This document shows positions 2 through 3,454 of a stretch of DNA of 64,000 nucleotides, piece after piece (the first letter of the stretch is position 1; every line of letters starts with the position of its first letter). Under the pieces are notes generated by a model. It ran no database searches. It was given only the letters and a program-made list of their open reading frames with translations, and had not been told where the DNA came from. This DNA is from Stackebrandtia nassauensis DSM 44728. GTDB taxonomy: Bacteria > Actinomycetota > Actinomycetes > Mycobacteriales > Micromonosporaceae. The position numbers and the translations under genes were made by a program. The stretch spans positions 806,001 to 870,000 of the forward strand of contig NC_013947.1 of NCBI RefSeq assembly GCF_000024545.1, given 5' to 3'.

Positions 2-895
2 GACGCCCAATGGGGATACTCGGTGAAGGCCGTGACCGCCTGCACCGTCATGATGCTGCCCCGGCAGTCCTTCCAGGACCTGATGGAGCAGTCGGAGGAC
101 CTGCGCGACCACATCGACGACTTCCGGGAGTTCACGCACCACCGGCACAACCAGCACGGCGAGGCCGAGGTCGCCGTGTCCGCCGGGCACAGCGGCGAGG
201 TCGAACTGCCGGGCACGTTCGTCGACTATGAACTGTCGCCCCGGGAGTACGAGCTCAGCGTCGCCCAGACCGTGCTGCGGGTGCACAGCCGGGTCGCCGA
301 CCTGTACAACGAGCCGATGAACCAGCTGGAGCAGCAGCTGCGGCTGACCATCGAGGCGCTGAAGGAGTGCCAGGAGAACGAACTCATCAACAACAAGGAG
401 TTCGGTCTGCTGCACAACGCCGACTTCAAGCAGCGCATCTCGACCCGCACCGGACCGCCGACCCCGGACGACCTCGACGAGCTGCTGTGCCGTCGCCGTC
501 GTACCAACGTGATGCTGGCGCACCCGCAGACCATCGCCGCCATGGGACGCGAGTGCAACAAACGCGGCATCTACCCGCAGAGCATCGACTTCCACGGGCA
601 CATGATGCCGACCTGGCGCGGCGTGCCGGTGCTGCCGTGCAACAAGATCCCCGTGACCGAGAACCGGATGAGCTCGATCATCGCGATGCGGCTCGGCGAG
701 GAGAGCCAGGGCGTCATCGGTCTGCACCAGACCGGCATCCCCGACGAGTACGAGCCGGGCCTTTCGGTGCGGTTCATGAACATCAACGAGAAGGCGATCA
801 TGTCCTACCTGGTCAGCGCCTACTACTCGGCGGCGGTGCTGGTGCCCGACGCGCTGGGTGTGCTGGAGAACGTCGAGATCGGACGGTTCGACTAG
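2..895 (+). CDS. Family 2B encapsulin shell protein, 5'-truncated by the window
   Basis: The frame is open from base 2, so the true start lies upstream; 297 residues are visible. The first ~20 ([21 protein letters not shown]) read like the end of a Crp-type cyclic-nucleotide-binding domain. After a polar linker comes an HK97-like shell fold, visible in segments such as [14 protein letters not shown], a long helix with [20 protein letters not shown], and [17 protein letters not shown], ending in [12 protein letters not shown]. Shell proteins with an inserted cNMP-binding domain are known as family 2B encapsulins; their cargo enzymes include polyprenyl transferases and terpene cyclases. The next gene is such a transferase, which supports the call. 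The protein would self-assemble into a cytosolic icosahedral compartment. The N-arm and most of the cNMP domain are outside the window, so ligand-binding residues cannot be assessed. Confidence 0.85.
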
Positions 896-907
896 TCCTG
901 GTCCGCA

Positions 908-944
908 GGCGCCGGTCCCGGCTGACAGAGTCGGGACCGGCGCC
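908..944 (+). terminator. Strong hairpin between shell and cargo genes
   Basis: A perfect 13-bp stem (908-920 with 932-944) and an 11-nt loop lie 12 nt after the shell stop codon and 33 nt before the prenyl synthase start. There is no clear T tract. It could be a partial terminator or an mRNA-processing/stability element that makes shell transcript more abundant than cargo transcript. Confidence 0.6.
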
Positions 945-977
945 GACCCCACATCCCACCTGAGCACGAAAGGCACC

Positions 978-2018
978 ATGGACACCATTGACGTGATCCC
1001 GGGCTCCCGGTCGGCGCGGGAGATCCTCAGCCACAGCCGCACCCTGGTCGATCCCGGTCTGCGAGCCGCCGTCGACACGCTTCCACCGCCCACGCGGCAC
1101 ATCGCCGGATACCACTTCGGATGGTGGGACGAGAACGCCGAGCCCGCCGAACACAAGGCGGGCAAGGCGATCCGTCCGGCGCTGGTGCTGTTGTGCGCCA
1201 GAGCGGTGGGTTCCTCCGACATCGAGGCGCTGCCCGCCGCGGTCGCCGTCGAACTGGTCCACAACTTCTCGCTGGTCCACGACGACGTCATCGACCGCGA
1301 CGTCACCCGCCGCCACCGGCCCACCGCCTGGAGCGTCTTCGGCGACGGCGCCGCGATCCTGGCCGGGGACGCGATGTCGACGCTGGCCTGCGCGGTGCTG
1401 GCCGACAGCGGTCACCCGGCGGCGATGGACGGCATCAAACTGGTCAACCGGGCGATCCAGGAACTCATCGACGGCCAGCACGCCGACGTCAGTTTCGAGA
1501 CCCGCGAACAGATCGATCCGCAGGAGTGCCGGGCCATGGCCGCCGCCAAGACCGGCGCGCTGCTGGGCTGCGCCTGCGCGATCGGCGCCCGCTTCGGCGG
1601 CGGCAGCCCCCATCAGGTGGAACGCCTGCGCGCCTTCGGAACCGACCTCGGGCTGGCATTCCAGCACGTCGACGACCTGCTCGGCATCTGGGGCGACCCG
1701 CAGGCCACCGGCAAACCGGTGTACTCGGATCTACGCAGCCGCAAGAAGTCGCTGCCGGTGGTGGCGGCGCTGGCCTCCGACTCCCCGGCCGCCGCCGCGC
1801 TGTCGAGCCTGTACTCGGGCACCGAACCGTTGCGGGACGAGGAGATCACCCGCGCCGCCGCGCTCATCGAGGAGGCGGGCGGTCGACAGTGGAGCAGCAC
1901 CGAGGCCGCCGGACTGCTCGACCGCGCCCTGGCGTCACTGGCCGAGGTCGGCGCCGAGGAGTCCGCCGCCAGCGACCTGACCACCCTCGCGCGGCTGGTC
2001 ACCCGGCGGGACCGCTGA
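978..2018 (+). CDS. trans-Polyprenyl diphosphate synthase, likely encapsulin cargo
   Basis: 346 residues; ATG at 978 has a GAAAGG ribosome site 7 nt upstream. It belongs to the isoprenyl synthase family (GPP/FPP/GGPP synthases) that condenses IPP with an allylic diphosphate. The first Asp-rich motif is in [10 protein letters not shown] and the second in [25 protein letters not shown] is the usual basic IPP-binding segment. The chain length of the product cannot be read from the sequence. About 40 residues precede the conserved core, including a hydrophilic leader ([17 protein letters not shown]) that could serve as an encapsulation segment. The stop overlaps the next start by one base (TGATG), so translation with ispH is probably coupled. 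Its position directly after a family 2B shell gene suggests it is packaged; that is inference from family precedent. Confidence 0.88.
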
Positions 2019-3454
2019 TGACCACTGAAGCGCGCACCGTGGTGCTGGCCTCGCCGCGTTCGTTCTGCGCCGGGGTGGAACGGGCCATCGAGATCGTCGA
2101 ACTGGCGCTGGAACGGTTCGGCGCCCCGATCTACGTCCGCAAGCAGATCGTCCACAACACCCACGTGGTGGCGCGGCTCGAGGGCGAGGGCGCGATCTTC
2201 GTCGACGACCTGGACGCGGTACCCGACGGGGCCTGCGTGGTGTTTTCCGCGCACGGGGTGGCCCCCAGCGTGCGGGCCGAGGCCGAGTCGCGGGGCCTGG
2301 ACGTCATCGACGCGACCTGTCCGCTGGTCGCCAAGGTGCACACCGAGGCCCGCCGGTTCGCCGAACGCGGCGACACGATCCTCCTCATCGGGCACTCCGG
2401 CCACGAGGAGGTCGAGGGCACCATGGGCGAGGCGGCGGGCATCCGGCTGGTCGAGTCGCTGGCCGATGTGGACTCGCTCACGGTCGAGGATCCGTCGAAA
2501 GTGGCCTATCTGACGCAGACGACGCTGTCGGTCGACGAGACCGCCGAGATCATCGCGGCGCTGCGCCGCCGGTTCCCGAAGCTGCGCGGCCCGGGCGGCG
2601 ACGACATCTGCTACGCCACCAGCAACCGGCAGGAGGCCATCGTGGAGGTGGCCCGGGAGGCCGACCTGGTGCTCGTGGTCGGCTCCCGCAACTCCTCCAA
2701 CTCCCGGCGGCTGACCGAGGTCGCCGCCACCGCCGGAACCCCGGCCCACCTGATCGAGGACGCGGGGCAGATCCGCACCGAATGGCTGACCGGGGCGCGG
2801 GTCATCGGGCTCAGCGCCGGGGCCTCGGCGCCGCCGCACCTGGTGGAGGCGGTGATCGCGCACCTGCGCGGTTTCGGGCCGGTCACCGTCACCGAACGGC
2901 ACACGGTGGAAGAGAACGTGACCTTCTCGCTGCCGCTGGTGGTGCGGCAGCCGTTAGGCGTGCTGCTCGCACCATTCCTTGAGCGACTTCGCCTCGGTGT
3001 CGACGAACTTGCGGATGGTGGCACCGGCCAGCAGCTTCGCCAGGAACGCCGTCGGACCGGCCAGGTCGAAGGTCAGCTCGACGACCGTGGTGCCGTCCGG
3101 GCCGGGTTTGGCGATGTGGTCGGCGCTCAGCCGCAGCCCGCCGGGATCGCTTGCCTTCCAGGTGAAGGACTCGCCCTCCTTCACCTCGGTGATGGTCCAG
3201 ACCCGGTCGCGCTGCTTGGGCTGGACCACCTCGGCGGTGTCGCCGACCCGCAGACCGTCCTGATGGGAGGGTTTCACGGACGTCACGGTCGGCGTCCACT
3301 TCGGCCAGTCCTCCAGGTCGGCGATCGTCCGCCAGACCAGGTCGACCGGCGCCTTGACGGCGAGAGTGACGTGGTGAAACATGGAGATTCCTCTCGGTCT
3401 TCGGTGATCACCATTATTCGACCACAATCACTTGGTCGCTTTTCGGGCATATGA
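2018..3454 (+). CDS. ispH: 4-Hydroxy-3-methylbut-2-enyl diphosphate reductase, with an abnormal 3' extension
   Basis: The last enzyme of the MEP pathway, a [4Fe-4S] protein making IPP and DMAPP. The three cluster cysteines are in [21 protein letters not shown] and [22 protein letters not shown] and [11 protein letters not shown] are also conserved. The family-like sequence ends near [15 protein letters not shown], about residue 312 (base 2953), where an IspH should stop. This frame has no stop there and runs on to 3454 antisense across the whole SRPBCC gene, adding ~165 low-complexity residues unlike IspH. A TAG sits one frame over at 2955-2957, so a one-base indel just before it would explain the oddity. 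The functional protein is probably bases 2018 to ~2957. It overlaps the prenyl synthase stop by one base and supplies that enzyme's substrates. Confidence 0.85.
2954..3382 (-). CDS. SRPBCC-family (START-like) protein
   Basis: 142 residues starting at [17 protein letters not shown], chosen because a GAGAGGAA ribosome site lies just upstream; an in-frame ATG 15 codons earlier lacks one. The order of elements fits the polyketide-cyclase/START-like helix-grip fold: a first strand with [19 protein letters not shown], then WTPTVTSVK, then alternating strands ([31 protein letters not shown]) and a C-terminal helix [21 protein letters not shown]. These proteins bind hydrophobic ligands; no catalytic set is recognisable and the ligand is unknown. 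It converges on ispH, and its stop codon (2954-2956) is exactly where IspH should end. Confidence 0.8.

Follow-up and report, generated by a model that had tools for sequence, protein, structure and literature searches.

A gene for an encapsulin, a protein shell of viral origin, a gene for a polyprenyl diphosphate synthase and an extra copy of ispH stand side by side in the soil bacterium Stackebrandtia nassauensis DSM 44728, and their arrangement raises the question of whether the synthase is enclosed by the shell and what part the neighbouring IspH would play in supplying it. The genes lie at the start of the window, the 64,000-nucleotide stretch that was analysed, which comprises bases 806001–870000 of a single-contig genome of 6,841,557 bp, the size published for the type strain LLR-40K-21 (PMC3035245). 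The reading favoured here, to which a probability of about 0.7 is given, is that of a single-shell Family 2B operon of the polyprenyl-transferase (PT) type with a dedicated IspH paralogue, where the synthase is the probable cargo, IspH a cytosolic supplier and the cNMP-like domain of the shell serves another ligand. The shell would self-assemble into an HK97-fold compartment in which the synthase, as cargo, would turn IPP and DMAPP into a prenyl diphosphate, most likely geranylgeranyl diphosphate. IspH would remain in the cytosol and raise the supply of IPP and DMAPP when the operon is on, the extra gene copy being observed and its role presumed, and the cNMP-like domain would gate or dock a ligand other than a cyclic nucleotide.

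Gene layout and the shell protein

The sequence upstream of the window edge was read from the same genome to recover the missing 5' part of the shell gene. All three genes were confirmed on one strand in the order shell, synthase, IspH (Table 1), as the first-pass annotation of the window had described them, including the TGATG overlap of synthase and ispH, where one base is shared. A chance origin of the three gene calls is excluded by their matches to three curated models and by the recurrence of the triad. The first-pass annotation had also proposed that a terpene cyclase be sought upstream of the window; none was found there, the upstream neighbours of the shell gene being a beta-helix protein (L005:10113-11294) and an epimerase-type protein. 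Across the whole genome PF19086 terpene-synthase matches occur only at 1.20 Mb (two-domain) and 2.11 Mb (2-MIB-type), so that no PF19086-type cyclase stands beside the window locus. A search of the available literature for an encapsulin study in Stackebrandtia found none.

Table 1. Features of the shell, synthase and ispH locus, in window positions unless another coordinate system is named.
Feature	Position	Strand	Basis or remark
Family 2B shell gene, C-terminal 297 codons and stop	2..895	+	Profiles, structure alignment
Full shell gene, likely extent	Genome C1:805492-806895 = L005:11492-12895	+	ATG of MPDISTM; start lies 508 bases before the window
cNMP-binding-like insertion domain of the shell, end	2..91	+	P0001 residues 160-247, mostly upstream of the window; phosphate-binding Arg absent, invariant Trp instead
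SrpI-like HK97-fold shell domain	134..886	+	P0001 residues 262-512; diagnostic motif 1 RRRR, Enc2-like
Polyprenyl diphosphate synthase, Family 2 encapsulin cargo type, 346 aa	978..2018	+	Curated and Pfam profiles
First 12 codons of the synthase	978..1013	+	Sole disordered, poorly conserved N-terminal stretch; only N-terminal room for a flexible loading peptide
ispH (lytB), 313 aa IspH-homologous	2018..2956	+	Start within the synthase stop (TGATG); in-frame stop absent at end
Continuation of the ispH frame to the first in-frame stop	2957..3454	+	Not coding-like; antisense to the next gene
SRPBCC gene (polyketide cyclase/dehydrase-like), convergent; operon boundary	2954..3427	-	Antisense to the ispH frame extension

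The full-length shell protein matched the NCBIfam model encap_f2b with 780.5 bits (cut-off 400) and the Pfam families SrpI-like (PF19307) and cNMP_binding (PF00027) with 466 and 64.7 bits, the cNMP-binding-like insertion separating the SrpI-like domain from the N-terminal arm region. Near end-to-end alignments were obtained with three solved Family 2B shells (9bix, 9bhu and 9bje); that with 9bix covers query residues 55–511, starts at 9bix residue 20 and includes the N-arm. The likeliest start is the ATG at L005:11492, from which the protein begins MPDISTMSEQEQQAQSLSTAAARNLATTTKSTPQMQ... These matches bear out the initial assignment to Family 2B HK97-like shells with a cNMP-like domain, and the N-arm and complete cNMP domain expected upstream of the window are both present, together with an N-terminal extension. 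The window shell is a complete Family 2B encapsulin, cut only by the window edge.

Alignment of 163 shells revealed that motif 1 tells the two shells of a pair apart in all the two-shell loci aligned: it reads, for example, TVKD or LVKE in the first shell and RRRx in the second, with the form TRRK in the second shell of five cyanobacterial loci. Shells from single-shell loci nearly always carried RRRx or MRRx. The motif 1 of the window shell is RRRR, and its motif 2 looks Enc1-like. In Streptomyces lydicus the RRRK shell protein assembles alone and its partner does not (PMC12407261), which makes self-assembly of the window shell as a single shell a fair expectation; this motif and the close full-length match to solved shells suggest that it would form an HK97-fold compartment. 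The window shell thus resembles Sl-Enc1 and Sl-Enc2 of S. lydicus (PMC12407261) in shell family and domain order and carries the motif 1 of Sl-Enc2, the lone-assembling component. It differs in that its locus has one shell gene instead of two and its motif 2 is Enc1-like, while the S. lydicus cargo is a xylulose kinase. One single shell among those aligned, L139 (LVKD), lacks a motif 1 of the second type.

The presence of a cNMP-like domain had led to the suggestion that a cyclic nucleotide gates access to the compartment. Within the stretch of the phosphate-binding cassette a Trp occupies one fixed position in 163/163 aligned shells; the position before it is Arg in only four of the 163, and the window shell reads Gln-Trp. 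When cyclic-nucleotide domains of kinases were aligned with the shells, their Arg fell on the position just before the shell Trp, and in the E. coli CRP cassette, which is one residue longer, the Arg would fall on the Trp itself. The window shell therefore lacks the phosphate-binding Arg of a functional cyclic-nucleotide-binding domain. In a studied Family 2B shell the cNMP-like domain was reported in 2025 to bind no cyclic nucleotide, and another ligand was suggested (PMC12407261). Because the Arg is missing, the Trp is invariant and the studied domain does not bind, opening or closing of the pores by a cyclic nucleotide is very unlikely despite the Pfam cNMP_binding match of 64.7 bits, and a gate or docking domain for another ligand is the more likely role.

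The polyprenyl diphosphate synthase

The synthase matched f2_encap_cargo4 (NF041169), the model of Family 2 encapsulin polyprenyl-transferase cargo, with 479.6 bits (cut-off 450) and Pfam polyprenyl_synt with 196 bits. Its start is backed by an upstream AAAGG and by relatives, and its aspartate-rich motifs are DDVID and DDLLGIWGD. The closest solved structure is 3nf2 from Streptomyces coelicolor, with 48% identity and a TM-score of 0.92–0.94, to which the N-terminal region can be aligned from query residue 15; the solved relatives that follow include several archaeal-type C20 (geranylgeranyl) synthases. The DDxxD motif contains no insertion and is preceded at five residues by a Phe, a combination that is typical of such archaeal-type C20 synthases. 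By these motif rules the enzyme would use IPP and DMAPP to build a prenyl diphosphate of short to medium length, most likely geranylgeranyl diphosphate.

The N-terminus is where a loading peptide had been anticipated. In the 2021 encapsulin survey PT cargo was described as having an N-terminal domain that is disordered over 50 to 100 residues, and as having no conserved motif (PMC8346489). Such a domain, usual for the class and not a strict requirement, is absent from the window synthase, and no long N-terminal loading domain was seen in its AlphaFold2 model or in the 28 aligned synthases. The model, for which 28 shell-linked relatives served as the alignment, had a mean pLDDT of 91.9; residues 1–10 averaged 43, disorder was limited to residues 1 to about 11, and helices at 13–32 and 37–46 had pLDDT values above 90. 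The mean share of the commonest residue per column rose from 0.43 (residues 1–12) to 0.64 (13–24), 0.72 (25–58) and 0.75 (catalytic part). In the window synthase and its close relatives the residues ahead of the Pfam domain are well conserved and for the most part ordered; they are therefore part of the enzyme, and the room left for a flexible loading peptide is about 12 residues. Residues 1–12 are poorly conserved. This short, mostly ordered N-terminus is a modest addition to what was known.

Synthases were scored in the shell neighbourhoods, with the start codons of relatives chosen by rule. Among 16 shell-less genomes only two had a synthase match over 115 bits, one of them at a contig end; the other synthases there matched only from about residue 54 on, apart from one matching from residue 16 and one from 38. 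The synthase subfamily, N-terminal region included, occurs almost exclusively in genomes that have a shell. The curated-model match and the conserved linkage to the shell support the earlier proposal that the synthase is the probable cargo.

IspH and the recurrence of the triad

IspH matched TIGR00216 with 312.7 bits (cut-off 187.9) and Pfam LYTB with 317.5 bits, and its three cluster cysteines, in SFCAGV, DATCPLV and ICYATSNRQ, aligned with those of solved IspH structures. Identification of the third gene as a linked precursor enzyme is supported by these profiles and by its recurrent linkage. The end assigned to it at 2957 was incorrect: the TAG at 2955–2957 is out of frame, and the frame stays open for about 165 codons past 2956, antisense to the SRPBCC gene. 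Third-position GC is 0.61 in this extension compared to 0.94 in ispH, and the window frame lacks a stop at the point where related IspHs end, that of Stackebrandtia albiflava among them. Either the stop was lost or one base of the sequence is wrong.

Recurrence was examined by a scan with the shell, which gave 80 named loci picked by similarity to the window shell, and by a search of 150 genomes of the same order. Shell, synthase and IspH occurred together in 20/42 loci with shell and synthase, a proportion that counts one genome twice (L100/L133, with a partial synthase match) and is no unbiased frequency, since resemblance to the window shell decided which 80 named loci were included. When the order was sampled evenly, a linked IspH was present in 11/16 genomes having shell and synthase together. 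The triad was found in S. albiflava, Kibdelosporangium, Saccharopolyspora, Micromonospora, Fodinicola and many genomes of the same order. Homologous loci thus do link the three genes, and the description of the locus as unusual is not borne out, precursor genes having been reported beside such operons in 2021 (PMC8346489).

The synthase lies directly downstream of the shell in most loci. Some loci extend to DXS, or to DXS and IspG (Kibdelosporangium, G083, G090), others add a 2-MIB-type terpene cyclase and a methyltransferase (Micromonospora L104, G004), and L142, L144 and L145 add two-domain terpene cyclases. In many loci, including that of Catellatospora, neither a cyclase nor a precursor gene was recognised near shell and synthase. 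The identities of DXS, IspG, cyclases and methyltransferases were checked by Pfam, and the 2-MIB-type cyclase also passes the NCBI Family 2 cargo model for terpene cyclases. Of the forms that include IspH, the window locus is the smallest in a series that runs from shell and PT through the addition of IspH, then of DXS and IspG, to that of a terpene cyclase. It is therefore a tractable system for testing whether prenyl synthases of Family 2B are encapsulated and which product they make. A record titled Rhodococcus rhodnii NRRL B-16535 (L062) contained a locus almost identical to that of Kibdelosporangium aridum and is probably a mislabelled genome.

All 11 genomes of the order sample with the triad carry at least one further IspH elsewhere, and all five with shell and synthase and no linked IspH carry a single IspH. 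In a tree of 42 IspH sequences, 13 housekeeping-type IspHs and two Planotetraspora copies lie behind a branch with support of 100/100. The window IspH pairs with the S. albiflava copy (98/96) on the other side of this branch, where most of the linked copies and a small number of unlinked extras also fall. Copy counts and tree identify the linked IspH as an added, separate lineage: it is a surplus paralogue that falls outside the clade of housekeeping IspHs, a result new in this analysis and a modest addition to the known Family 2B picture. The lineage provides a genetic handle on whether compartments bring their own precursor supply. More tentatively, the lineage may have evolved together with Family 2B encapsulins, joined in the fuller loci by DXS and IspG, as a source of substrate for an encapsulated prenyl synthase. 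Cells with a shell would then have a second supply line that serves the compartment and is regulated separately.

Alternative readings and related systems

Three observations count against the favoured operon reading: about half of the shell and synthase loci have no IspH, the synthase N-terminus has no long disordered domain, and genome G021 carries a PT-IspH-DXS-IspG run (L201) with no Family 2B shell anywhere in the genome. The last of these means that the precursor genes may belong to terpenoid production generally and not to the compartment, and IspH may go with the synthase or with terpenoid supply instead of the shell. A second shell-less genome, G056, has IspG, IspH and DXS together. 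The G021 synthase is of the same subfamily by best match and shares precursor genes with the window locus; it scores 391 bits, below the cargo cut-off of 450. The G021 run offers a natural control against which the role of the shell can be judged.

The strongest alternative is that synthase and IspH are an independent cassette for terpenoid precursors. It would sit beside the shell because both serve one product, with the synthase working in the cytosol and the shell holding another enzyme encoded elsewhere, for example a terpene cyclase. In addition to the G021 run and the short disordered N-terminus, this is consistent with the lack of a cyclase in the window locus of a genome that has both a two-domain (1.20 Mb) and a 2-MIB-type (2.11 Mb) terpene synthase, and with the conserved motif GPTGLGT having been reported for terpene-cyclase cargo and none for synthases (PMC8346489). 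It does not readily account for a synthase subfamily nearly confined to genomes with Family 2B shells, for the position of the synthase directly downstream of the shell in most loci, or for the many loci, such as that of Catellatospora, in which neither cyclase nor precursor gene was recognised near shell and synthase. This explanation is considered possible and distinctly the less probable of the two.

Enclosure of IspH itself, which would place the final MEP-pathway step in the lumen alongside the synthase, is improbable. The TGATG coupling to the synthase and the distinct lineage of linked IspHs would fit such a role; however, the linked IspHs of the relatives checked are of ordinary length (about 308–314 aa) and carry no extra tail for targeting, the in-frame extension of the window copy does not look like coding sequence, and the spacing between synthase and IspH is not conserved, varying from overlap to about 750 bases. 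IspH also depends on an iron-sulphur cluster and on electrons from a donor protein, requirements that a closed shell would hinder. That IspH is a chance neighbour, as its absence from roughly half of the shell and synthase loci might suggest, is refuted by recurrence of the adjacency across many genera, for the most part with gene order preserved, and at two loci of the S. nassauensis genome; with one to four IspH copies in about 7 Mb, adjacency by chance would be expected in well under 1%.

When the locus was compared with known systems, the closest were the PT-type Family 2B operons, of which the 2021 survey counted about 900, 'often' with precursor genes (Nat Commun 2021, PMC8346489). Shared features are the cNMP-like insertion in the shell, the synthase directly downstream, terpenoid precursor genes nearby and occurrence in Actinobacteria. 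The differences are a single shell, IspH as the only precursor gene, and a synthase N-terminus that is short and mostly ordered helix where 50–100 disordered residues were reported. Linkage of precursor genes to PT-type operons was thus already reported in general terms, and IspH is not named in the main text of the survey (PMC8346489). As the arrangement recurs in many related bacteria, the window locus represents no new system but cleanly exemplifies one already known.

Encapsulin loci for 2-methylisoborneol comprise a shell, an MIB synthase and a GPP methyltransferase. The window locus has a shell of the same family and, unlike them, neither cyclase nor methyltransferase. A second Family 2B locus of the S. 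nassauensis genome (L130 6962-19707; genome 2.109–2.122 Mb) is of this kind, with a GPP methyltransferase, a 2-MIB-synthase-type cyclase and two shells followed by a convergent IspG-DXS-IspH-PT run; DXS and IspG each have a further copy elsewhere in the genome. The whole-genome search reported one TGA inside the match to the second shell of this locus, and the frame is nonetheless open over 455 codons. Near the same locus, L130 18826-19707 (minus strand) encodes a highly diverged IspH-like protein (35% identity, about 141 bits), which formed an extremely long branch on the IspH tree.
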